In this document: in pieces, positions 46,953 to 62,008 of the stretch
How the letters are laid out: every line of letters starts with the position of its first letter
How positions within the stretch are numbered: position 1 is the first letter of the stretch
Assembly: GCF_030696805.1 (NCBI RefSeq)
Contig: NZ_JAUYRO010000053.1
Location: 62,001 to 126,000, forward strand
From: Methyloversatilis sp.
GTDB lineage: Bacteria; Pseudomonadota; Gammaproteobacteria; Burkholderiales; Rhodocyclaceae
Reading direction: 5' to 3'
DNA: 64,000 bases
The notes under the pieces: generated by a model
Database searches by the model: none
What the model was told of the DNA's origin: nothing
What the model saw: only the letters and a program-made list of their open reading frames with translations
Position numbers and translations under genes: made by a program

Positions 46953-47441
46953 TCAGAGCCGGCGGATCTTCTGCAGCAGCGCGCTCGTCGAGCGTTCGTG
47001 TTCGAAGGCGATCGACTCGACGCGACCGCCCCACGCCAGCACTTCACGCGCGCCGATGATGCGGTCGATCGGCCAGTCGCCGCCCTTGACCAGCACCTCG
47101 GGACGACAGGCAAGGATGAGGTCGAGCGGGGTGTCGGCGTCGAACCAGGTGACGAGGCTGACCGATTCCAGCGCCGCAATGACGGCTGCACGATCTGTCA
47201 GCGGATTGACCGGGCGGTCATCGCCCTTGCCCAGCCGACGTACCGACGCATCGGTGTTCAATGCCACGATCAGCGAGCCACCGAGCGCACGCGCCTGTGC
47301 CAGGCAGGTCACGTGACCGCGATGCACGATATCGAAGCAGCCGTTGGTGAATACCCGAGGTCCGGGCAGATCGGCAGCGCGCGCCGACAGATCGGCCGGC
47401 GCGCACAGTTTGCCCTCAAAGGCCGGTGTGCCGCCGTGCAT
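46953..47441 (-). CDS. rfaE2: HldE C-terminal-type heptose 1-phosphate adenylyltransferase
   Basis: A 162-residue nucleotidyltransferase. FTNGCFDIVHRGHV carries the HxGH-type motif, and ALNTDASVRRLGKG, ERSTSALLQKIR match the ADP-heptose synthase adenylyltransferase domain. In many Betaproteobacteria the kinase and this domain are separate genes, as here. It makes ADP-D-glycero-beta-D-manno-heptose for LPS core. Its start overlaps the stop of the ferritin-like gene. Confidence 0.9.
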   Translation of the reverse strand: MHGGTPAFEGKLCAPADLSARAADLPGPRVFTNGCFDIVHRGHVTCLAQARALGGSLIVALNTDASVRRLGKGDDRPVNPLTDRAAVIAALESVSLVTWFDADTPLDLILACRPEVLVKGGDWPIDRIIGAREVLAWGGRVESIAFEHERSTSALLQKIRRL

Positions 47442-48271
47442 CAAGCTGCCGTGGCGAACTGCTTGCGGAAGCGGTTCAGGTCGCTGATGGACTTGAAGCT
47501 TTCACCGAACAGCGAACCGAGATTGCGCAGGATGCCGCCGATGACACGCGCTTCGCAGTCCTTGTCGAAGCGGATCTGCTGATCCAGCCAGTGTTCGAGC
47601 CAGTCAGGGTCGGGCAGGCGGGACTGTATGGTGTCGCGCGGGTAGAGCGCCTTGCTGACGTGCAGGTTGGTCGGGTGCAGCGGCTTGCCCGCACGCCCAC
47701 TGGCCGCCATCAGCATGCCGATCTTGGAAAATGCCGCGCGCGCCGTGTCGCCGGTGCGCTCGATGGCGCGCTTCATGTACTTCAGATAGGCGCCACCATG
47801 CCGTGCCTCGTCGCGCGACAGCAGCCCATAGATGTGCTTGATGACCGGCTCGGTGTGCCATTCCGACGCACGGCGATACCATTGGGTCAGCCGCACTTCG
47901 CCGCAAAAATGCAGCATCAGCGTTTCCAGTGCCGGTGCGGGATCGAACTCGAAGCGTACTTCGTGCAGTTCCTGCTCGGTCGGTGACAGGTCGGGCCGGA
48001 AGCGGCGCAGGTATTCGAGCAGCACCAGCGAATGCTTCTGTTCCTCGTAGAACCACACCGACATGAAGGCGCAGAAGTCGGAATCGTCGCGGTTGTCGCG
48101 CAGGAACATTTCGGTTGCCGGCAGCGCGGACCACTCGGTGATGGCATTCATCTTGATGGTCAGCGCCTGTTCGTCCGACAGCCGCGACGCGTCGAAACCG
48201 TCCCAAGGCACGTCTTTGTCCATGTCCCAGCGGGCGGATTCAAGTGACTTGAACAGTTCAGGGTAGAGCAT
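47441..48271 (-). CDS. Ferritin-like diiron protein
   Basis: A 276-residue helical protein with diiron-ligand motifs: VWFYEEQKHSLVLLEYL (Glu-x-x-His), then CGEVRLTQWYRRASEW and SRDEARHGGAYLKYM (E-x-x-H second half). This is the pattern of ferritin-like diiron carboxylate proteins near acyl-ACP desaturases. Both EXXH elements seem present. Its substrate is unknown. It lies upstream of rfaE2 and overlaps it, an odd pairing. Confidence 0.8.
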   Translation of the reverse strand: MLYPELFKSLESARWDMDKDVPWDGFDASRLSDEQALTIKMNAITEWSALPATEMFLRDNRDDSDFCAFMSVWFYEEQKHSLVLLEYLRRFRPDLSPTEQELHEVRFEFDPAPALETLMLHFCGEVRLTQWYRRASEWHTEPVIKHIYGLLSRDEARHGGAYLKYMKRAIERTGDTARAAFSKIGMLMAASGRAGKPLHPTNLHVSKALYPRDTIQSRLPDPDWLEHWLDQQIRFDKDCEARVIGGILRNLGSLFGESFKSISDLNRFRKQFATAA

Positions 48272-48487: not shown

Positions 48488-49438
48488 TCAGTTGAGGGGC
48501 GTGGTCGGCGAATCCGGCAGCCGGGCCGCGCGCCACTCGGCCAGTGTGTCGGGCACGCTGCGGATGGCGCCGATCACCGATACGCCCGGGATGCTCGCCA
48601 GTCGCTCGTGCGCACCCGCGCCGCCGACCCAGATGTCCACGGTGTCCGGCAGTGATTCACGCAGGGTACGAACGCCGGCGAGTGCCTGGCGCAGCGGATA
48701 GGCAGCGCTGAAGGAGAGCGCCACGATGTCGGCCGCCGAGGTCAAGGCCGATGCGCGGATGTCGGTCAGTGGCATGCGGGGCCCGAGCGAACAGCACTGC
48801 GCGCCTTCAGACGCAAGCATCACCTCCACCATCAGCAGGCCGAGGCCATGTTCCTCTTCCGGCAGTGTGGTCAGCAACACGCGCGGCGGCGTGGCCGGCC
48901 GGGTGTAGCTGGCAAGGGCACCGCGCAGGAAGCTCTGCACCTGCTCGGTGTAGAAATGTTCTTCGGGTACGCCCAGTTCGCCGCGTATCCAGGCTTCGCC
49001 GATAACCACGTTGAGCGGTGCGACAAGACCCGAAACCAGTCCCTGCAGACCTCTTTCGAGCAAGCTGCGCTGAAACAGGTCGCGCAGTGCGGGCACATCG
49101 TGCCGTCGTATCGCTGCCAGTACGTCGTCGGTCGGTACGCCGCCATCCGGTGCGACCGGCACACCTGTGCCGCGCTCAGCTTCGACAATCCGCTGCAGTT
49201 CCGCCTCGCTGGCGGCCAGCAGCTTGCCTGGCCGCCAGCCCTGATCCAGCAATCTGCGGATCAGGCGCAACCGATTGACGTCTTCGGGCGTATACAAACG
49301 CTCGCCAGATTCATCGCGGGCAGGCTGGGGAAATCCATAGCGTCTCTCCCACACGCGCAGCGTATCTTTGGGAAGGCCTGTTTCGCGTTCGACGGCGCTG
49401 ATCGTCATTCGACCGGAGCCGTTGGCATCATGTTTCAT
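48488..49438 (-). CDS. litR: B12-dependent photoreceptor regulator, LitR/CarH-like MerR
   Basis: A 316-residue protein with a MerR-type helix-turn-helix (residues 11-70: ISAVERETGLPKDTLRVWER), a helical linker and a cobalamin-binding region. The light-sensing helical motif W150-x9-E160-H161 (WIRGELGVPEEH) matches the Wx9EH motif of CarH. E195-x-H197-x-x-G200 (EEHGLG) is the B12-binding signature with the lower axial His. Both match the adenosylcobalamin photoreceptors CarH and LitR, where dark tetramers bind operators and light releases them. It is divergent from the operon at 49532, with the -35/-10 region between. A light-repressor role is inferred. Confidence 0.9.
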   Translation of the reverse strand: MKHDANGSGRMTISAVERETGLPKDTLRVWERRYGFPQPARDESGERLYTPEDVNRLRLIRRLLDQGWRPGKLLAASEAELQRIVEAERGTGVPVAPDGGVPTDDVLAAIRRHDVPALRDLFQRSLLERGLQGLVSGLVAPLNVVIGEAWIRGELGVPEEHFYTEQVQSFLRGALASYTRPATPPRVLLTTLPEEEHGLGLLMVEVMLASEGAQCCSLGPRMPLTDIRASALTSAADIVALSFSAAYPLRQALAGVRTLRESLPDTVDIWVGGAGAHERLASIPGVSVIGAIRSVPDTLAEWRAARLPDSPTTPLN

Positions 49439-49439
49439 A

Positions 49440-49452
49440 TTGTCCTGGACAA
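49440..49452. promoter_or_regulatory. litR: Palindromic operator O1 (candidate LitR site)
   Basis: TTGTCCTGGACAA, a perfect 13-base palindrome centred at 49446. It lies just before the -35 hexamer of the divergent operon and directly upstream of the litR start codon. Same core as O2. Confidence 0.8.
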
Positions 49453-49456
49453 ACCA

Positions 49457-49485
49457 TTGACACGACGTTCAATGCGCCCTAGATT
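49457..49485 (+). promoter_or_regulatory. Promoter of the lit operon
   Basis: TTGACA at 49457-49462, a perfect -35, and TAGATT at 49480-49485 as -10 are separated by 17 bases. The start would be near 49492, ahead of operator O2. Confidence 0.7.
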
Positions 49486-49500
49486 AAGAGCGACAGATAG

Positions 49501-49517
49501 TTTTGTCCAGGACAAAA
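49501..49517. promoter_or_regulatory. litR: Palindromic operator O2 (candidate LitR site)
   Basis: TTTTGTCCAGGACAAAA, a perfect 17-base palindrome centred at 49509 and 63 bases from the centre of O1. It lies just after the predicted transcription start and 15 bases before the ATG at 49532. Confidence 0.8.
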
Positions 49518-49531
49518 TAGGGGAGTCAGTC

Positions 49532-49804
49532 ATGAAGCACACTGCTGTAGCCGGTCTGTTTTTCGCAGGAATGGGTGCTTTCAGCAGCACGTGCGTGGCA
49601 CGGATGCCCGGCACGGATGAGCCGTCGGTTACGGCAAAGACGGCGCAGGTCGCGTTGGCTGAACCGGCCACGTCTGTGCATAAGCCGACCCCCAACGAAA
49701 CGCTCATTCACCTGCACCGCGCGGTAACGGGCATTCATTTCCTGCCGCCGGCGTTTTCCGAAACGGCGGTTCGCTGTTGTGAGCCCAGTCGTGCGTCGCG
49801 CTGA
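49532..49804 (+). CDS. Small exported hypothetical protein, first gene of lit operon
   Basis: A 90-residue protein from ATG 49532, with AGGGGAG six bases before it. It has a signal peptide (AVAGLFFAGMGAFSSTC...) and a mature part rich in Thr, Pro and Ala, with two neighbouring Cys (VRCCEPSRASR) at the end. I do not recognise a family. It is directly under the O1/O2 promoter and overlaps the next gene by 26 bases, so it is translationally coupled. The frame is open upstream into litR but this ATG is well supported. Confidence 0.7.
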   Translation: MKHTAVAGLFFAGMGAFSSTCVARMPGTDEPSVTAKTAQVALAEPATSVHKPTPNETLIHLHRAVTGIHFLPPAFSETAVRCCEPSRASR

Positions 49805-50339
49805 CTGGTTGCTTGCTGCTGTCTTCACACTGACGACCGGAGCCGCCATGGCCGAAACCTGTCCGACGCTGCTTGACCGATCGCTGCCCGGCCTGCTTGA
49901 TGGCAAGCCGAGATCGCTGTGCGAATTCAGCGGCCGTGTGCTGCTTGTCGTCAATACCGCAAGTCGCTGCGGCTTTACCCGCCAGTACGAAGGCCTGGAA
50001 AAACTGCAGTCACGCTTCGGCGCGCGCGGTCTTACGGTGCTTGGTTTCCCGTCAAACGATTTCGGCAATCAGGAGCCGGGCAGCAACAAGGACATCGCAG
50101 AGTTCTGCAGCATGACCTATGGGGTCAAGTTTCCGATGTTTTCGAAAACCGCTGTGAAGGGCGCGCAGCGGCACCCCTTCTACGCAGACCTCACACGCCT
50201 GACCGGCGTCGAACCGGCATGGAATTTCCACAAGTATCTGATCGCAAAAGATGGCAGCACGATCACGTCTTTTCCGAGCAATGTTGCGCCGGAATCGCCC
50301 GAAATGATCGCTGCCATAGAGGCTGCGCTGGCACGATAA
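49779..50339 (+). CDS. Exported glutathione peroxidase family protein
   Basis: A 186-residue protein with an N-terminal signal peptide (WLLAAVFTLTTGAAMA). The fold is GPx: peroxidatic Cys64 in NTASRCGFTRQYEGL, Gln98 in GFPSNDFGNQEPG, and Trp148/Asn149 in WNFHKYLI. A further Cys110 suggests thioredoxin-type recycling. It would reduce lipid or other peroxides in the periplasm. Start is GTG 49779. Placement after a light promoter agrees with the peroxide-handling member of singlet-oxygen regulons. Confidence 0.85.
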   Translation: MSPVVRRADWLLAAVFTLTTGAAMAETCPTLLDRSLPGLLDGKPRSLCEFSGRVLLVVNTASRCGFTRQYEGLEKLQSRFGARGLTVLGFPSNDFGNQEPGSNKDIAEFCSMTYGVKFPMFSKTAVKGAQRHPFYADLTRLTGVEPAWNFHKYLIAKDGSTITSFPSNVAPESPEMIAAIEAALAR

Positions 50340-50444
50340 TGTCGATGTCCATTTGCCGTTCATGGGTAGTGTCAAGGTAAAGTTACGCTTTGCTGCGGCG
50401 GCGGGTGCCGGCCGCATATCACCCAAGGCGGTTCCAGGAGAATT

Positions 50445-51728
50445 ATGAGAATTGCAGTCGTGGGTTCCGGAATTTCCGGGCTCGCAGCCGCATGGCTGCT
50501 GTCGCGCGAACACCACGTCACGCTGTTCGAACAGCATGACCGTCTCGGCGGTCACTCGAACACGCTTGATGTTGAACTGGATGGAGTGCGCCATCCGGTG
50601 GACACCGGTTTCATCGTATTCAACCGGGCGACCTACCCGCACCTGTGCAGCCTTTTCGCTCATCTGGGCGTGGACATCGCGGACAGCGAAATGAGCTTCG
50701 GTGTCAGTCTGCGCGACTCCGGCATCGAATGGAGCGGCAGCAGCCTCGCCACGGTGTTCGCCCAACCGGCGAATCTCGCCCGGCCGAAGTTCTGGCGAAT
50801 GTTGCAGGACATCATGCGCTTCAACAGCGAAGTGACCGAGCGTGCGGCCAACGGCAGCGCAGAGCACCTGTCGCTCGGTGAGTTTCTGGTGAAGCATCGC
50901 TATAGCGAGTCCTTCCGGGACTGGTATTTGCTGCCGATGGCGGCAGCAATCTGGTCCTGCCCGACCCATACGATGATGGCTTACCCGCTCGCCACGTTTG
51001 CCCGGTTCTGCCACAACCACGGATTGCTGCGCGTGAATGATCGACCGCAGTGGCTCACCGTGCGCGGCGGCTCGCGCGAGTACGTGAAGAAGATTGCGGC
51101 GCTGCTCGTCGACGTACGACGCGCAGCAGCAGTGACCCGCGTGCGTCGGACCGAAGAGGGCGTGTGGATCGATGCGGCTGGCGCCTCTACCTGCTTCGAT
51201 CAGGTTGTGATGGCCAGTCATTCCGATGAGTCGCTCGCCCTGCTGGGCGAATCCGCGACCCCTGCCGAACAGCGGCTGCTTGGCGCCATACGTTACCAGC
51301 CCAATCACGCGGTGCTGCACACAGACACACAGTTGCTGCCGCGCAACCGGCGCGTCTGGTCAGCGTGGAATTACCTGGCGGGCGAAGGCGCGCCCGACGA
51401 GCGGCCGGTCAGCGTGTCCTACCTGATGAATCGTTTGCAGCCGCTGCCGTTCAGGCAGCCTGTCGTGGTGACGCTGAACCCGTTCATCGAACCCGATCCG
51501 GCCAGCGTGATCGCGCGCATCGAGTATGCGCACCCGCTGTTCGACGGTCCGGCGATCGATGCGCAGCAGCGGCTGCCGGAAATACAGGGCCGCGATCGCA
51601 TCTGGTTCTGCGGCGCGTGGACCGGCTACGGTTTTCACGAGGACGGCCTGTCATCGGCGGTGCGCGTGGCGCGTCAGCTCGGTGCCGACGTGCCCTGGCA
51701 ACGCAGCGAACCGGTGCTTGCCGCATGA
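50445..51728 (+). CDS. FAD-dependent amine oxidase/desaturase-like protein
   Basis: A 427-residue flavoprotein with the Rossmann motif VVGSGISGLAAAWLL at the N-terminus and the FAD-binding phrase EQHDRLGGHSNTLDVEL. The C-terminal part has IWFCGAWTGYGFHEDGLSSA, typical of this amine oxidase-like group found next to DUF1365 and cyclopropane synthase genes. It may act on fatty acyl chains; the reaction is not known. ATG 50445 has AGGAGAATT before it. A gap of 105 bases from the GPx gene may hold a second promoter, though I see no palindrome like O1/O2 there. Confidence 0.88.
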   Translation: MRIAVVGSGISGLAAAWLLSREHHVTLFEQHDRLGGHSNTLDVELDGVRHPVDTGFIVFNRATYPHLCSLFAHLGVDIADSEMSFGVSLRDSGIEWSGSSLATVFAQPANLARPKFWRMLQDIMRFNSEVTERAANGSAEHLSLGEFLVKHRYSESFRDWYLLPMAAAIWSCPTHTMMAYPLATFARFCHNHGLLRVNDRPQWLTVRGGSREYVKKIAALLVDVRRAAAVTRVRRTEEGVWIDAAGASTCFDQVVMASHSDESLALLGESATPAEQRLLGAIRYQPNHAVLHTDTQLLPRNRRVWSAWNYLAGEGAPDERPVSVSYLMNRLQPLPFRQPVVVTLNPFIEPDPASVIARIEYAHPLFDGPAIDAQQRLPEIQGRDRIWFCGAWTGYGFHEDGLSSAVRVARQLGADVPWQRSEPVLAA

Positions 51729-52495
51729 TGGCTGCAAGCGATGTCAGCCTGTGCCGCGGCGCTGTCATGCACGAGCGGACCGCACAGGTCCGTCGCCGCT
51801 TTGCGTACCAGTTGTTCTTCATGCGTTTTCGCCTCGATGCACTGGGCAAGGCGAAGATTCCGATGCTCGCACTGAACCGCTGGGCGCCGTTGTCGCTGCA
51901 CTACCGTGATCACGGTGCGCGAGACGGATCGCATCCGCTGCCCTGGATACGCGAATTGCTGGCGCATGAGGGGCTGGCCGGCGTCGATGGGGAAGTCATC
52001 CTGCAAACCATGCCGCGGCTGTTCGGTTATGTGTTCAACCCGGTCAGCTTCTGGTTTTGTCACGACGCCGACGGTGCCTTGCGCGCCGTGCTGTGCGAGG
52101 TCAGCAACACCTTCGGCGAACGCCATGCCTACCTCGTGTCGCATGACGACCGTCGCCCCATCCTGAATGGCGAGTGGCTGGAAACGCGCAAGGTTTTCCA
52201 CGTGTCGCCCTTCTTTCCGGTCAGCGGTCGCTATCGCTTCCGTTTCGATCAGCGCGACACCCAGCATGCGGTCGCGATCGACTACTTCGAAGGCACGGAT
52301 CGGCAGTTGCGCACGCGTGTCTCAGGGCGCGCCGTGCCGATGAGTCGCGCCGTGGCGTGGCGTGCGCTGGCGGCTTTCCCGCTGATGACGCTGGGCGTGA
52401 TCGCGCGCATACACATTCAGGCATTTCACCTGTGGCGCGCAAACGTGCCCTTTTTCAGAAAACCCGCTCCTCCAGTACAGGAATTGACCCGATGA
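51725..52495 (+). CDS. DUF1365 family protein
   Basis: A 256-residue protein beginning at ATG 51725, which overlaps the previous stop (ATGA). It has the DUF1365 phrases TAQVRRRFAYQLFFMRFRLD, PRLFGYVFNPVSFWFC and EVSNTFGERHAYLV, and an ending with KVFHVSPFFPVSGRYRFRF. Its function is not established; it nearly always accompanies the flavoprotein and CFA synthase, so a lipid role is inferred. A hydrophobic segment is near residue 215. Confidence 0.9.
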   Translation: MMAASDVSLCRGAVMHERTAQVRRRFAYQLFFMRFRLDALGKAKIPMLALNRWAPLSLHYRDHGARDGSHPLPWIRELLAHEGLAGVDGEVILQTMPRLFGYVFNPVSFWFCHDADGALRAVLCEVSNTFGERHAYLVSHDDRRPILNGEWLETRKVFHVSPFFPVSGRYRFRFDQRDTQHAVAIDYFEGTDRQLRTRVSGRAVPMSRAVAWRALAAFPLMTLGVIARIHIQAFHLWRANVPFFRKPAPPVQELTR

Positions 52496-53706
52496 ACCAA
52501 CCGGATGCCATCATCGCGCTTGCGCGACACGGAAAGCTTCCATCGGCCGCGCGCCACGTATTCAAACTGCTTGAACGCATCGAGCACGGCTGGCTGATGA
52601 TGTCGCTGCCGGACGGCGAAATGGTGTCTTTCGGCGGCCGGGGCGAGCCGGTTGAAATGCGCGTTCGCGACTGGGGAGTGTTCGACCGCGTGATCGCGCG
52701 TGGCGACATCGGTCTCGGCGAAGCGTGGTTCGACGGCCTGTGGGACACCGACGAGCTCGGCCGCGTCCTGACGCTGTTCGCGCAGAACCGCGACGCGCTG
52801 CAGCGTGCGGTGCATGGCAATCTGCTCGCGCTGGTGTTTGCGCGCATGCGACATCTCGGACGTGCCAATACACGACGCGGCAGCCGCCGCAACATCGTCG
52901 CTCACTACGATCTGGGCAACGAGTTCTACGGCCTGTGGCTGGATGGCAGCATGACCTACTCGAGCGCACTGTACGAGGGCGACACCCGACGCGACCTGGA
53001 AACGGCGCAGCGCGCCAAGTACCAGCGCATTGCGCGCGTGATGGGGCTGTCGGCCGACGACAGCGTGATCGAGATCGGTTGCGGCTGGGGTGGTTTCGCC
53101 GAGGTCGCCGCGCAGCGTTCCGGTGCGCGCGTGCACGGCGTCACACTGTCGCCCGCACAACTTGCATGGGCACGACAGCGCGCCGAGCGTGGCGGCTATG
53201 CCGACCGCGCGACCTGCGAATTGCGTGATTACCGTGACCTGCGCGGCAAGGCTTCGCACATCGTATCGATCGAAATGCTCGAGGCGGTCGGCGAGCGCTG
53301 GTGGCCGACCTATTTCGCGAAGCTCGACAGCCTGCTGGCATCCGGCGGACAGGCGGTGGTCCAGACGATCAGCATCGCCGACGATCTGTTTGCGCGTTAC
53401 CGTAAAGGCACTGACTTCATCCAGCAGTATATTTTCCCCGGCGGCATGCTGCCGTCGCCCAGCGTGTTCGTGCAGCAGGCGGAAAAGGCCGGCCTGCAGG
53501 TACGCGACGATTTCCGTTTCGGGCTGGACTATGCGCTCACCCTGGCACGCTGGCGCGCCATTTTCGAAGCGCGCACCGACGCCTTGCGCGCGCTGGGCTT
53601 CGATCGGCGCTTCCAGCGGCTGTGGCGCTTCTATCTCGCTTACTGCGAGGCGGGCTTTCGTGCCGGTTCGATCGACGTTCATCAATTTCATCTGGAGAAA
53701 ACCTGA
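52492..53706 (+). CDS. cfa: Cyclopropane-fatty-acyl-phospholipid synthase family protein
   Basis: A 404-residue methyltransferase of the CFA family. It adds a methylene from SAM to unsaturated acyl chains of membrane lipids; family members make other methylated or branched lipids. The family marker AHYDLGNEFYGLWLD is at 137-151 and motif I IEIGCGWGG at 193-201. SIEMLEAVGERWWPTYF and KGTDFIQQYIFPGGMLPSP follow as expected. ATG 52492 overlaps the DUF1365 stop by four bases. Confidence 0.93.
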   Translation: MNQPDAIIALARHGKLPSAARHVFKLLERIEHGWLMMSLPDGEMVSFGGRGEPVEMRVRDWGVFDRVIARGDIGLGEAWFDGLWDTDELGRVLTLFAQNRDALQRAVHGNLLALVFARMRHLGRANTRRGSRRNIVAHYDLGNEFYGLWLDGSMTYSSALYEGDTRRDLETAQRAKYQRIARVMGLSADDSVIEIGCGWGGFAEVAAQRSGARVHGVTLSPAQLAWARQRAERGGYADRATCELRDYRDLRGKASHIVSIEMLEAVGERWWPTYFAKLDSLLASGGQAVVQTISIADDLFARYRKGTDFIQQYIFPGGMLPSPSVFVQQAEKAGLQVRDDFRFGLDYALTLARWRAIFEARTDALRALGFDRRFQRLWRFYLAYCEAGFRAGSIDVHQFHLEKT

Positions 53707-54230
53707 TGCGCCGAATTCTTGTCTTGCTGTTGATGGTCGCCGGCATTGCCTCCGCCCAGCCTCTGGCGGGTGCCGGCGACTTGCTGCCCGACCTGAAGCC
53801 GCTCGGCAAGGGGGAAATGCGCTGGTTCGGTTTCAAGCTGTACGACGCTTCGCTGTGGGCCAGCGGCGGCACCTATTCGCCGGACGGCGGTTTCGCGCTG
53901 AGCCTCCGCTACGCCCGTTCGTTCGAGGGCTACAAGCTGGCGGAAGCGAGCATTGACGAGATCAAGCGGCTGGGCGAGCGTGACAAGAAGCGGCTGGCAC
54001 GCTGGAAGGACACCTTGACGGGCGTGTTTCCCGACGTGAAGGAAGGCGACGTGCTGACCGGCGTGAAGATGCCTGACGGCAGCGCGCGTTTCTTCCACCA
54101 GGGTGTCGAACTGCCGGCGATCGAGGACACGGCGCTATCCGACGCCTTCTTCGCCATATGGCTTGACGCCCGCACGCGTGAGCCCAGGCTGCGCACCCGC
54201 CTGCTGGCCGAATCGCTCCCTTCAAGTTGA
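53706..54230 (+). CDS. Chalcone-isomerase-like exported protein
   Basis: A 174-residue protein with a signal peptide (ILVLLLMVAGIASA) and the chalcone isomerase-like fold: GEMRWFGFKLYDASLWASGG, FALSLRYARSFEGYKLAEAS and the C-terminal FFAIWLDARTREPRLR. In fungi and plants related proteins bind fatty acids, so a lipid-chain handling role is possible here. Start overlaps the CFA stop by one base (TGATG). Confidence 0.85.
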   Translation: MRRILVLLLMVAGIASAQPLAGAGDLLPDLKPLGKGEMRWFGFKLYDASLWASGGTYSPDGGFALSLRYARSFEGYKLAEASIDEIKRLGERDKKRLARWKDTLTGVFPDVKEGDVLTGVKMPDGSARFFHQGVELPAIEDTALSDAFFAIWLDARTREPRLRTRLLAESLPSS

Positions 54231-55537
54231 GATCGTCTCGCCTGTTTGCCTATGGCGTGCTCGGCGCGCCACTGGCCGCCGCGGCGTTGCCCATTTACGT
54301 CCACATACCGAAGCTTTACGCAGACAGTTTCGGCGTATCGCTGACGGTACTGGGCATCGTGCTGTTCGCAGCGCGCTTGCTCGACGCCCTGATCGACCCG
54401 CTGATTGGCGCTGCCAGTGATCGTGCGCGGAGTCGCCGCCGACTGGTGTGGATAGGTCTGCTGCCGCTGGCGCTCGGGCTGCTCGCACTGGTGCGCCCGC
54501 CCGAAGGCACCGACCCGGTGTTCTGGCTGATCGGTGCGCTGGCACTGGTCTATGCCGGCTACAGCATCAGCACCATCAACTATTACGCCTGGGGCGCCGA
54601 ACTATCGGCAACGCCGGCACTCGGCACCCGACTGGTCGCGGTGCGCGAAGGCTGCGCGCTGGTTGGCGTCGTGGCGGCGTCCATCGCGCCCGGCCTGCTG
54701 GCGCCGGATGCGGCACAGGGTCTTTGGCAGGCGGTGCTCTACTGGCTGCCCTTGCTGGCGGTGAGCGCGGTCATCACGCTGTTTGCCGTGCCGGAAGCAA
54801 GCCATGTGCGGCCGCTGCGACACGAGCCGCTGCGCGCCGTGCTGGGCGAGGTACTGCAGAACCGGCGCTTCCGCCGTCTTCTAGTGGTGTTTGCGCTCAA
54901 TGGCATCGCGTCCGCCATTCCGGCCACATTGGTGTTGTTCTTCATCGCCGACGTACTCGGCGCAGCGCAGCGGGAAGGTCTGTTTCTGGCGCTGTATTTC
55001 GTTGCCGGCGTACTGGCGCTGCCGCTGTGGACGCGCCTGTCGGACCGCTACGGTCGCGCACGCAGCTGGGCGGCGTCGATGGTGCTGGCGATATCGGTCT
55101 TCGCCTGGGCGTTCACGCTCGGCCCGGGCGACGACACGGCCTTCATGCTGATCTGTGCCGCATCGGGCATCGCGCTGGGTGCCGACCTCGCGTTGCCGGC
55201 GGCGCTGGTGGCCGGCCTGGTCGGCCGGCGCGATGAGCCGCTGTCGGCTGGCGGCAGCTTCGGCGTGTGGAACTTCGTCACCAAGATGAATCTGGCACTG
55301 GCCGCCGGTCTGGCACTGCCGCTGCTCGGCCTGCTCGGCTATCAGCCAGGCGCCACCGACGCTGATGCACGACTGGCGCTGGCGGCGGTCTATGGCCTGG
55401 TGCCACTGGCGCTCAAGGCGGCCGCTTGCGTGCTGCTGTGGCGCCATGCGGACTGGCTTGAACCGGAAGTGGAACCCGAATTGACGAACGAAACGGCAAC
55501 CGGAACGGAAGCCGGATATGGAGGACTGAAATCGTGA
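54227..55537 (+). CDS. GPH/MFS-type transporter
   Basis: A 436-residue membrane protein with about twelve helices. It resembles MelB-type (GPH) sodium/sugar symporters: DALIDPLIGAASDRARSRRR and LSDRYGRARSWAA. Its cargo cannot be told; other transporters of this form accompany DUF1365/CFA clusters. The start is a TTG overlapping the previous stop. Export or import of a lipid component is possible. Confidence 0.85.
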   Translation: MRSSRLFAYGVLGAPLAAAALPIYVHIPKLYADSFGVSLTVLGIVLFAARLLDALIDPLIGAASDRARSRRRLVWIGLLPLALGLLALVRPPEGTDPVFWLIGALALVYAGYSISTINYYAWGAELSATPALGTRLVAVREGCALVGVVAASIAPGLLAPDAAQGLWQAVLYWLPLLAVSAVITLFAVPEASHVRPLRHEPLRAVLGEVLQNRRFRRLLVVFALNGIASAIPATLVLFFIADVLGAAQREGLFLALYFVAGVLALPLWTRLSDRYGRARSWAASMVLAISVFAWAFTLGPGDDTAFMLICAASGIALGADLALPAALVAGLVGRRDEPLSAGGSFGVWNFVTKMNLALAAGLALPLLGLLGYQPGATDADARLALAAVYGLVPLALKAAACVLLWRHADWLEPEVEPELTNETATGTEAGYGGLKS

Positions 55538-56085
55538 GATCGATGCTGTGGCGGATGCGGAGCTTCATCGGTGCGCTGTGTGCCGCCGTGCTGGTGGCCG
55601 GGTGCGGCGGCGTGGCCGTTGATCGCTATGCAGGCCAGACGCCGGCCATGGACCTGCGTACTTACTTCAATGGCACGGTCAATGGCTGGGGGATGTTCCA
55701 GGACCGCGGCGGCGAAGTGATCAAGCGCTTCACGGTGCGTATAGAGGCGCGCTGGGAAGGCGATACCGGCACGCTGGACGAACACTTCTCGTGGAGCGAT
55801 GGTACGACCAGCCGCCGCGTGTGGACCATCAGGGATCTCGGCAATGGCCGCTATACCGGCCGCGCCGACGACGTGGTCGGCGAGGCGACCGGCGAGGCGA
55901 ATGGCAGTGCGCTGCGCTGGCGGTATGTACTGGCGCTGCCGGTCGATGGCAGCGTCTACAACGTCGACTTCGACGACTGGATGTACATGATTGACGACAA
56001 GGTCATGCTGAACCGCTCGGCAATGAGCAAGTTCGGCATCCACCTCGGCGAGGTGACGTTGTCGTTCACCCGCGGTGCACCCTGA
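55534..56085 (+). CDS. DUF3833 family lipoprotein
   Basis: A 183-residue lipoprotein (AAVLVAGCGG). The mature part has the DUF3833 pattern YFNGTVNGWGMFQDRGGEV, FTVRIEARWEGDTGTLDEHF and VDFDDWMYMIDDKVMLNRSA. A member of most DUF1365/CFA clusters. A lipocalin-like beta structure is likely. GTG start overlaps the transporter stop. Confidence 0.85.
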   Translation: MRSMLWRMRSFIGALCAAVLVAGCGGVAVDRYAGQTPAMDLRTYFNGTVNGWGMFQDRGGEVIKRFTVRIEARWEGDTGTLDEHFSWSDGTTSRRVWTIRDLGNGRYTGRADDVVGEATGEANGSALRWRYVLALPVDGSVYNVDFDDWMYMIDDKVMLNRSAMSKFGIHLGEVTLSFTRGAP

Positions 56086-56864
56086 TGTTCGCGCCGCTCA
56101 ACCCACCGCTGGCCGACTGGTCGGGCAAGCGCGTCTGGCTCATCGGTGCGTCGTCCGGCATCGGCGAAGCGCTGGCGCGCCGGCTGATGGCGCAGGGTGC
56201 GCGGGTGGCGCTGTCGGCGCGCAGCGCCGACAAGCTCGCAACGCTGTGTTCGTTGTCTGACCAGGCGGTCGCGCTGCCGCTCGACGTGGCCGAACCCGAC
56301 GCGCTGGCTCATGCGGCCGCCACGCTGACCGCAAGCTGGGGTGGCATCGATGCCGTGCTGTTCGTCGCCGCGCGCTATCAGGCGGTGCGGGCCTGGGAAC
56401 TGGATCCGGCGGACATCGATGCAACACTCAACACCAATGTTGCCGCCGTCATGAAGGGCTGTGCCGCGGTGCTGCCCGACATGCTTGCCGCGCAGTCGGG
56501 TGCGCTCGTCATCCTGTCCAGCGTGGCGGGATATCGCGGCCTGCCCAAGGCCATCATCTACGGTGCGACCAAGGCGGCGCTGATCAACTTCGCCGAAACG
56601 CTCTTCATGGACGTACGGCCGCGCGGGCTGGGTGTGCATCTGGTCTGCCCCGGCTTCGTCGAAACGCCGCTGACCGCGCAGAACGACTTCAACATGCCCG
56701 CGCTCATTTCCGCCGACGAGGCGGCCGGGCACATCCTGAACGGCCTCGCCCGCGGTGATTTCCACATCCACTTTCCGCGTCGCTTCACGCGCTGGCTTCT
56801 GCTGCTGCGACTGCTGCCCTACCGCATGTATTTCGCCGCGGTGCGGCGGATGACCGGGCTTTAA
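56085..56864 (+). CDS. Short-chain dehydrogenase/reductase
   Basis: A 259-residue SDR. The Rossmann glycine motif is in IGASSGIGEALARRL, the catalytic Ser in SSVAGYRG, and Tyr-x-x-x-Lys in YGATKAAL. NADPH-linked reduction of a carbonyl is likely. It is the last gene of the operon, overlapping DUF3833 by one base. The C-terminus has a hydrophobic tail (FTRWLLLLRLLPYRMYF) that could associate with membrane. Confidence 0.9.
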   Translation: MFAPLNPPLADWSGKRVWLIGASSGIGEALARRLMAQGARVALSARSADKLATLCSLSDQAVALPLDVAEPDALAHAAATLTASWGGIDAVLFVAARYQAVRAWELDPADIDATLNTNVAAVMKGCAAVLPDMLAAQSGALVILSSVAGYRGLPKAIIYGATKAALINFAETLFMDVRPRGLGVHLVCPGFVETPLTAQNDFNMPALISADEAAGHILNGLARGDFHIHFPRRFTRWLLLLRLLPYRMYFAAVRRMTGL

Positions 56865-56882
56865 GCTCAGCGGAGTCCGGAC

Positions 56883-57542
56883 TCAGCGCGCTTCGACCGT
56901 CGCGGCATCGTCGTCCCGACGCATCGCCAGCGCCGCCAGCCAGTCCAGCACGCAGTAGAACGCACCGGCGGCGATCGGTGGATTGGCGGCGCTAAACGGC
57001 AGCCCCGGCACGAGCAGCGCCCAGGTCCAGTTGCCCATCGCCGTGCCGTACAGTTCCATCAGCAGTGCGAGTGCGAACATGGTGCCGTACAACCGTGGTG
57101 ACGGACCGTAGCGAACGCACAACAGGAAGAAGGCAAACAGCAACAGGCTGATGGTGTCGGCTTCAAACCACGCGAAGGACAGGACCAGACCGGCGCCCAA
57201 CGCGGGAACGGCATCCGGCAGTGCTGCGGGCAGCCGCTCCGTGAGCCACATGCCGAGCGCGAACAGCAGCACGTGGCCGGGCGGTACGAACAGCGGCAGA
57301 TTGCCGAGCCGGTATTCGTACAGCCCCCATACCAGCGCCAGCACGATTTCGCCGAAGGTCGCCCACGCCAGGCAAACCAGCCACAAGCGGCGATGGTCGG
57401 CGTCGGCGCGCCAGCACAGCAGGCCGAACAGCATCCAGGTCCAGATGGACACCACCGGCTGTGCCCAGGCGAAGGCCTGTCCGTCCAGCCACAGGCCGGC
57501 GACGATGGTGAGCACGATGACGAGGGCGAAGCGTTGTGTCAT
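56883..57542 (-). CDS. Polytopic membrane protein facing the lit operon
   Basis: Reading from ATG 57542, this 219-residue protein has about seven hydrophobic helices with conserved-looking phrases YEYRLGNLPLFVPPGHVLLF and YGTAMGNWTWALLVPG. GTG 57563 is an alternative start. It ends 18 bases from the SDR stop on the opposite strand. I do not recognise the family with certainty; DUF2878 proteins occur in such clusters, but the match here is not clear. Confidence 0.75.
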   Translation of the reverse strand: MTQRFALVIVLTIVAGLWLDGQAFAWAQPVVSIWTWMLFGLLCWRADADHRRLWLVCLAWATFGEIVLALVWGLYEYRLGNLPLFVPPGHVLLFALGMWLTERLPAALPDAVPALGAGLVLSFAWFEADTISLLLFAFFLLCVRYGPSPRLYGTMFALALLMELYGTAMGNWTWALLVPGLPFSAANPPIAAGAFYCVLDWLAALAMRRDDDAATVEAR

Positions 57543-57637
57543 GACGAAGGCGGATGCGATCACGGGTGGCCTGCGCCGGAAAGGCGCGACCGGGGCGCAT
57601 GGTAAACTCCACGCCTTGAAAAATCGCGGGTTTTCCC

Positions 57638-61612: not shown

Positions 61613-62008
61613 TCAGGACAGCGTGTCGCTGACTTCAAAGTCGACACGCAAGCCGTTGTCACGCGCGAAGTGCATCAGAAAATTGTAGGCCAGCGGTTCG
61701 AGTACATACAGCCGTGCATCGACGAAGACACACTTTTCCCCGGTAATCCAGCAACCCGGTCGCACAAATGGCGAATACCGCATCTTGCGCTGGCTGCCGA
61801 ATGACGACATCACGCCGCACAGGCGGTCGCACCAATCGCTGGGGCGGAATGGCTTGCCATTGGCGGTAGCGCCGATGATGGTGAAACTGCGTGGTGCCCG
61901 GTTTCCTTCACGCAATGCGTCCTCGGCAGTGCGTGTCGACAAGACTTCGTTCGCCGGAGAATCGGCAATCGTTAAAGTTGTAGCTTCAATGTGCGGGACG
62001 GCGCTCAT
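61613..62008 (-). CDS. DUF3579 family protein
   Basis: From ATG 62008 a 131-residue protein. The DUF3579 core is FTIIGATANGKPFRPSDWCD, then RLCGVMSSFG and YSPFVRPGCWITGEKCVFVD. The family is a Betaproteobacterial marker of unknown function. Its N-terminal 45 residues are variable. Divergent from the next gene. Confidence 0.85.
   Translation of the reverse strand: MSAVPHIEATTLTIADSPANEVLSTRTAEDALREGNRAPRSFTIIGATANGKPFRPSDWCDRLCGVMSSFGSQRKMRYSPFVRPGCWITGEKCVFVDARLYVLEPLAYNFLMHFARDNGLRVDFEVSDTLS

Follow-up and report, generated by a model that had tools for sequence, protein, structure and literature searches.

In Rhodobacter sphaeroides, the enzymes UfaM, UfaD (RSP1091) and UfaO (RSP1090, a DUF1365 protein) convert phospholipid cis-vaccenate to a furan fatty acid, and RSP1087-1089 are described as dispensable for this product (PMC7380195). 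Regulators of the LitR/CarH family are known mainly from light-induced carotenoid production, the class I LitR proteins being photosensors based on adenosylcobalamin (AdoCbl, also written AdoB12). Control of ufaM by LitR is described for Pseudomonas putida and Pseudomonas mendocina, where the regulator belongs to class II, thought unable to bind B12 (PMC9758184). Here, we describe a locus of Methyloversatilis sp. in which a B12-type LitR faces a nine-gene operon with counterparts of all three furan-fatty-acid enzymes. The analysis covers a stretch of 64,000 nucleotides (NZ_JAUYRO010000053.1, positions 62,001 to 126,000), hereafter called the window, and all coordinates are positions within it.

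Judged from sequence, a light-controlled furan-fatty-acid operon is the most likely reading of the locus, and we assign it a probability of roughly 0.7. The flavin adenine dinucleotide (FAD) protein, the DUF1365 protein and the cyclopropane fatty acid (CFA) family protein match UfaD, UfaO and UfaM by homology and gene order, and two palindromes of the TTTGTCCWGGACAAA type flank the predicted operon promoter. The operon lies on the plus strand, divergent from litR on the minus strand. In the list, TtCarH is CarH of Thermus thermophilus.

48488 to 49438, minus strand: litR, MerR-type repressor with cobalamin-binding domains, 316 amino acids; Wx9EH and ExHxxG intact, Ile151 at the position of TtCarH His132
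49439 to 49453: O1, predicted LitR operator ATTGTCCTGGACAAA; abuts the litR start codon upstream, 3 bp before the operon -35 element
49457 to 49485, plus strand: predicted operon promoter TTGACA-N17-TAGATT, between O1 and O2
49502 to 49516: O2, predicted LitR operator TTTGTCCAGGACAAA; at a spacing of 63 bp to O1; the -35 element (first base) is 45 bp away
49532 to 49804, plus strand: small open reading frame (ORF), 90 amino acids, signal-like N terminus by eye; matched only in same-genus loci
49791 to 50339, plus strand: glutathione peroxidase (GPx), active-site Cys, signal-like N terminus by eye; start at 49791 or 49779
50445 to 51728, plus strand: FAD amine-oxidase-family protein, UfaD-like; 43% identical to the Cereibacter johrii copy
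51725 to 52495, plus strand: DUF1365 protein, UfaO-like; 39% identical to the C. johrii copy
52492 to 53706, plus strand: UfaM-like S-adenosylmethionine-dependent fatty-acyl methyltransferase of the CFA family; S139/E239/A240/Q266/Y317 in Escherichia coli Cfa numbering
53706 to 54230, plus strand: Chalcone_3 chalcone-isomerase-like (CHI) protein, from Pfam
54227 to 55537, plus strand: MFS_2/GPH-type transporter, listed start TTG, from Pfam
55534 to 56085, plus strand: DUF3833 protein, from Pfam
56085 to 56864, plus strand: short-chain dehydrogenase (SDR), last operon gene, Pfam adh_short

The Pfam matches in the operon (GSHPx, Amino_oxidase, DUF1365 with an E value of 2.5e-75, CMAS, Chalcone_3, MFS_2, DUF3833 and adh_short) agree with the gene content named in a first-pass annotation of this DNA, except that the 90-amino-acid ORF has no Pfam match. 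The label "exported" for this ORF and for the GPx comes solely from N termini read by eye. The annotation had counted eight of nine gene junctions as tight or overlapping. Nine genes have eight junctions, seven of which overlap by 1 to 14 bp, and the GPx-to-FAD junction is a gap of 105 bp when the GPx start is taken as 49791. The annotated range ended at 57542, which falls within a convergent gene (56883 to 57563, minus strand, no Pfam match) outside the operon, and the protein called a CFA synthase groups with UfaM, not with Cfa. An Rfam search of the window returned one tRNA and nothing at the litR locus.

The operon was compared with loci of the sigmaE-ChrR system. A genome scan anchored on ChrR of R. 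sphaeroides (PDB 2z2s) yielded 142 relatives, the best 80 of which were used; some of these loci are cut by contig ends. R. sphaeroides 2.4.1 is not within the best 80 loci, and C. johrii, whose ChrR is 96% identical and ranked first, serves as its stand-in. In C. johrii, sigmaE-chrR is accompanied on the opposite strand by FAD, DUF1365, GPH, DUF3833 and SDR genes, with identities to the window genes of 43, 39, 37, 38 and 37%, respectively; this operon is without UfaM and CHI. The seven-gene series FAD-DUF1365-UfaM-CHI-GPH-DUF3833-SDR, in the window order and divergent from sigmaE-ChrR, is present in 7 of the best 80 loci (L262, L264 to L268, and L280), and L275 carries the same seven genes rearranged. 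Across the best 80 loci, the FAD gene is found in 75, DUF1365 in 73, SDR in 65, DUF3833 in 53, GPH in 46, UfaM in 16 and CHI in 8, with GPx in none at the cut-off used. Sequence and gene order support the kinship to the ChrR regulon proposed in the first-pass annotation. Its suggestion that GPx, CHI and the transporter form a new combination holds for GPx, but not for CHI and the transporter, which belong to the sigmaE-ChrR module in the seven loci above. ChrR itself does not exceed the TIGR02451 cut-off in any of 13 genus genomes, 11 of which give weak hits (31 versus 124.5 bits in the own genome).

Six plasmids were inspected among 99 with a DUF1365 match. The FAD-DUF1365 genes lie near a sigma factor and an anti-sigma factor in Paracoccus, Qingshengfaniella, Rhizobium tropici and Burkholderia anthina, near a TetR regulator in Cupriavidus, and near a MerR-type LitR homolog in Azoarcus KH32C. 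As for the GPx, a periplasmic member is reported to be RpoE2-dependent in Shewanella (PMC4336711). No solved relative of the DUF1365/UfaO protein was found by sequence. Its AlphaFold model is confident (pLDDT of 92), and the matches of the model in the PDB are weak (best E value of 2.7e-3, query TM-score of about 0.3) and point to nitrobindin- and lipocalin-like barrels, which provide only a lead. Residues invariant among 59 aligned DUF1365/UfaO sequences include H16, H134, F104-N105-P106 and W110.

The association with LitR extends to near relatives. A search of 101 genomes (the own genome and relatives) gave a LitR match at an E value of ≤0.001 in 59, many covering only the DNA-binding part or representing other B12 proteins. 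Forty relative litR loci were examined of the 42 non-own matches at ≤9e-50 (G051 and G065 were left out). The FAD-DUF1365-CFA-family genes are divergent to litR in 30 of these 40 loci, more than expected by chance, which answers the first-pass proposal to look for this gene set beside litR homologs. L043, L056 and L058 have a module that is incomplete, truncated or rearranged; L041, L042 and L072 adjoin contig ends; and L054, L055, L059 and L060 have no module or FAD-gene pieces only. GPx was matched in 20 of the 40 loci, in L058 across litR on the other side. Within the genus, 11 of 13 genomes contain a full-length litR, each with a second full-length CMAS gene on the litR contig, and the two genomes without full litR (G005 and G007) have neither an exact 15-mer operator nor a second full-length CMAS gene. 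A 276-amino-acid protein (47441 to 48271, minus strand; FA_desaturase_2, 4e-8; AurF, 9e-4, below cut-off) adjoins litR on the same strand in the window, and a homolog occurs in 20 of the 40 relative loci, including L060.

The regulator is a LitR of the B12-binding type (class I) with intact cobalamin motifs, and AdoCbl is its presumed chromophore. Pfam recognizes MerR_1, B12-binding_2 and B12-binding, the last barely above its cut-off (32.3 versus 32.1 bits), so that the MerR DNA-binding, helical and Rossmann cobalamin domains of the class I plan are all present. The motifs W150-x9-E160-H161 and E195-x-H197-x-x-G200, read as unbroken in the first-pass annotation, were borne out by alignment, and its view of an intact cobalamin-type LitR is supported by the sequence. 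Both motifs are kept in 40 of 41 aligned LitR proteins; the exception, L060, has lost them and has no operon nearby. The remainder of the B12 motif, x41-S-x-V/T-x22-27-GG (PMC8156234), is represented in part, by Ser242 and Gly272-Gly273, but with Ser at residue 244 where Val or Thr is listed, as in 40 of the 41 proteins.

The closest solved protein to LitR is TtCarH (E value of 1.1e-35). Its His132, which forms the bis-His light state (PMC10442372), corresponds to Ile151 in the window LitR, a residue on which the first-pass annotation did not remark, and is not His in any of the 41 aligned proteins, the residue after the Trp being Met in 12, Leu in 9, Val in 6, Ile in 5, Ala in 5, Thr in 2 and Glu in 2. 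TtCarH H132A stayed largely tetrameric after light in one study, and an earlier report differs (both in PMC10442372). Since other B12 photoreceptors carry Arg, Gln or Tyr at this position (PMC11796333), light sensing by LitR is still allowed, although the final step would be expected to differ. The genus could make AdoCbl, as 12 of the 13 genomes, the own genome included, encode a cobalamin adenosyltransferase. Photolyase-family genes are present in all 13; in the own genome, photolyase is probably outside LitR control, because no exact core operator exists beyond the litR locus.

The CFA-family protein can be placed by its residues and by phylogeny. E. coli Cfa holds bicarbonate by E239, H266 and Y317 (PMC11387697), and C139 is described as strictly conserved in cyclopropane synthases outside plants (PMC3132707). 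At positions 139, 239, 266 and 317, the window protein has S, E, Q and Y, whereas the canonical residues are C, E, H and Y. All 38 operon-type copies (the window protein, 32 litR-locus relatives and five plasmid copies) have Ser or Ala at 139 and Gln at 266, and all 13 Cfa copies (12 from the genus and that of E. coli) have Cys139 and His266. Among 40 phylum-wide UfaM-type loci, selected from the matches in 108 genomes, positions 139/239/240/266/317 read S or A/E/A/Q/Y, with one Arg240 (L173). A lone ufaM in a genome with photosynthetic reaction-center genes was found in L174, L176, L178, L179 and L181, and R. sphaeroides is described likewise. In a tree of 44 chosen rows, UfaM and Cfa split with support values of 100/98 and 99/98, and the window protein is placed with the UfaM proteins of Cereibacter. 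A comparison with the window protein gave one full-length UfaM-type match (46% identity) in C. johrii and one in Luteovulum (Cereibacter) azotoformans, both with the same residue pattern. As the enzyme groups with UfaM and not with Cfa, a furan fatty acid is the more likely product. In Halomonas, ufaM is consecutive with ufaD and ufaO, and it yielded 11-methyl-octadecenoate in E. coli (PMC12089945); plant relatives have been proposed, by similarity, as furan-fatty-acid enzymes (PMC10940516). Genes annotated as CFA synthases beside DUF1365 are probably UfaM, a likely misannotation.

Three clusters linked to ChrR or TetR (L130:3630-5462, L131:9668-11538 and L133:3012-4942) contain a second CFA-family protein, with Cys139 and His266, next to a DUF1295 gene. 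These DUF1295-linked proteins make up a third clade that is distinct from both Cfa and UfaM, and three proteins like them (L193, L195 and L198) keep His266 with Ala or Ser aligned at 139.

Direct control of the operon by LitR, as put forward in the first-pass annotation, is probable in view of the paired operators. In the own genome of 4.19 Mb, the 13-mer TTGTCCNGGACAA has two exact copies, both at the litR locus; with up to one mismatch, there are 4 genome sites, versus 17 for the reversed pattern. Searching 41 litR loci for pairs spaced 50 to 85 bp, with at least 9 of 12 letters at each site, gave pairs in 32 loci, at spacings of 63 bp (n = 21), 64 bp (n = 4), 62 bp (n = 1) and 74 bp (n = 6). 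Shuffled sequences gave a mean of 0.02 loci and a maximum of 1 of 41. When 10 of 12 letters were demanded at both sites and spacings of 30 to 200 bp allowed, a promoter-spanning pair was found in 28 of the 41 loci (63 bp, n = 18; 74 bp, n = 5; 64 bp, n = 3; 62 bp, n = 1; 86 bp, n = 1). O2 lies 45 bp from the -35 element in 26 of these 28, and O1 lies 17 to 19 or 29 bp before it. On a LitR tree of 40 rows (L060 excluded), well-supported branches call for at least two changes of the 74-bp spacing (gains or losses), and the best tree calls for five. A step of 11 bp, one turn of the helix, with no intermediates fits paired sites that need the same helix face.

Among near relatives, these sites are associated with LitR. 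Matches of at least 11 of 12 letters number 2 in the 80 ChrR loci (1.42 Mb) versus 63 in the 40 LitR loci (0.69 Mb); pairs are found in 28 of the 40 LitR loci, and in the ChrR loci overlapping pairs occur in one locus only, within T/A-flanked inverted repeats. The top named plasmid matches to LitR are betaproteobacterial (Eleftheria, Comamonas and Azoarcus). Azoarcus KH32C, whose LitR homolog and core operon are on a plasmid, has an operator pair at 74 bp. In Comamonas endophytica, chemotaxis genes surround LitR, and of the two sites, which are separated by 360 bp, one is within the LitR gene. In Eleftheria terrae (L299:8418-9894), LitR faces a fasciclin-domain gene across two perfect sites 62 bp apart, and the 18.9 kb examined contain no furan-type operon. 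Fasciclin genes also adjoin the sigma/anti-sigma pair in Paracoccus and Qingshengfaniella.

A third operator-like site, 151 to 162 bp 3' of O2, is seen in L041, L072, L073, L075, L078, L079 and L080, and is not in the window. A wide LitR regulon was considered and set aside, as no exact core site exists in the own genome beyond the two operators and the two one-mismatch sites (L039 and L040, equal to L297 and L298) suggest no recognizable target. Operator-like palindromes, one of them perfect and the other carrying one mismatch, also lie 5' of hemB in two congeners (L294:2122-2136 and L296:2258-2272). The L294 copy, the perfect one, may be a terminator, since it lies within a hairpin that precedes a run of T, and hemB was put aside as a second LitR target in these congeners. 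If the hemB-upstream sites are real, LitR would also act on porphyrin synthesis.

Several observations weigh against a light-controlled furan-fatty-acid operon. The NCBIfam CarH equivalog model NF052513 matches LitR at 146 bits, where the cut-off is 400. Given that H132A stays largely tetrameric, a LitR without this His might respond weakly or via another route, as in the LOV-LitR system of Pseudomonas. For cotton cyclopropane synthases, Gln is reported at position 266 (although the printed list gives Q, I, Q), and Ser139 is present in two of the three (PMC3132707); as these enzymes deviate at the same positions, residues 139 and 266 mark a clade, not a reaction or product. In the window alone, an operator search with three mismatches is not significant, 24 of 100 shuffles reaching two matches, and no pair was found at 50 to 85 bp in 9 of the 41 litR loci. 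Finally, 7 of the 40 phylum-wide UfaM loci have a LitR match (five at 43 to 47%, two at 28%), none with an operator pair; L187, L188 and L192 have single sites.

These points bear on the alternatives to different degrees. LitR could regulate the operon without sensing light, either as the effector of a LOV or BLUF photoreceptor or in response to the AdoCbl level or oxygen. Class II LitR of Pseudomonas operates with a separate photoreceptor (PMC9758184), and the His tied to tetramer loss in CarH is absent from all 41 LitR proteins. However, class II proteins are described as lacking one B12 domain (PMC9758184), whereas the window LitR has both, along with ExHxxG, and 40 of 41 proteins retain the Wx9EH adenosyl cap. 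Among the locus genes examined, none was recognized as encoding a LOV or BLUF protein, the genome not having been searched for one. We consider this alternative unlikely.

Alternatively, under LitR control the operon could yield fatty acids with a cyclopropane ring or with no more than a methyl branch, UfaD and UfaO acting otherwise. The enzyme is a CFA family member, the putative CFA synthase VC1122 of Vibrio cholerae rises in blue light (PMC5241685), and the cotton enzymes are the reason for retaining this option; cyclopropane as the main product was otherwise dropped on clade, residues and partner genes. A separate canonical Cfa is encoded in 12 of the 13 genus genomes, including the own genome, the operon copy groups with Cereibacter UfaM, and genes for UfaD- and UfaO-like partners lie next to it, ordered like the proven pathway genes, which makes such a product distinctly improbable. 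It is very unlikely that the paired palindromes are a feature of the operon itself or serve an unrelated regulator, with LitR a mere neighbor: the operators are predictions, the perfect L294 copy may be a terminator and seven phylum-wide LitR-matching loci lack a pair, but the sites are nearly absent from the 80 ChrR loci (the same enzyme genes are present in most of them), E. terrae LitR has two perfect sites with no such operon in the 18.9 kb examined, and exact sites and full litR are jointly missing in two genus members.

The sequence itself shows the genes and their kinship, the cobalamin motifs, the operators with their spacing, and the association with LitR among near relatives, whereas the identity of the chromophore, the response to light, the sense of the regulation, any tetramer or loop, and the lipid formed are inferred. 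In the dark, AdoCbl-loaded LitR would bind both operators flanking the promoter on the same DNA face, probably as a tetramer bridging O1 and O2, and would repress the operon and its own gene. Light would cleave the Co-C bond and release LitR, allowing transcription of the nine genes. UfaM would then methylate cis-vaccenoyl chains in phospholipid, UfaD would desaturate the UfaM product, and UfaO would insert O2-derived oxygen to give the furan ring; GPx, if exported, may remove peroxides. More tentatively, a betaproteobacterial B12-photoreceptor branch without the cobalt-capping His, acting through a phased 63- or 74-bp repression loop, might replace sigmaE-ChrR over a furan-lipid operon of the same order, arming membranes on light before damage occurs.

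One lipid-defense module is connected to two unrelated sensors, one reading singlet oxygen and the other probably reading light directly, so that anticipation and reaction become comparable on the same enzymes. If LitR works without a bis-His ligand, the CarH switch would be one of several solutions, which is relevant to green-light optogenetic tools. Furan fatty acids may also be a common light-induced lipid in betaproteobacteria.

The component parts of this locus are already known; new are the B12-type LitR over the operon, the exchange of regulator, the phased operators and the absent His. A literature search, with poor coverage of subscription journals, did not find a B12-binding LitR over a furan-fatty-acid operon. 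The window LitR shares with T. thermophilus CarH the domain plan, Wx9EH and the lower axial His (His177, equivalent to His197), but the latter regulates carotenoid synthesis, has His132 and recognizes 11-bp direct repeats, not palindromes (PMC8156234). The Pseudomonas PmlR1/PplR1 region (phrB, SDR, FAD protein and ufaM) likewise places a LitR family gene beside ufaM, with a sigma70-type promoter, one operator at -35 and one between the start site and the gene (PMC9758184). It differs in its class II regulators with the helical B12 domain only, its short LOV proteins, the photolyase in the cluster, and the operator TGTACA-N12-TGTACA, unlike the window palindromes (PMC9758184). The sigmaE-ChrR loci of Rhodobacteraceae (Phaeobacter, Tritonibacter, Aquicoccus and others) carry the seven genes from FAD to SDR in window order, transcribed away from the regulator, and differ in that regulator and in having no GPx match at the cut-off used. 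With the R. sphaeroides sigmaE-ChrR operon RSP1091-1087, the window shares the order of UfaD, UfaO, GPH transporter, DUF3833 and SDR, as read in C. johrii, and its UfaM falls in the same clade as that of ufaM RSP2144, via the Cereibacter UfaM. In the window, however, LitR is the regulator, UfaM and CHI lie inside the operon, and the small ORF and GPx lead it.

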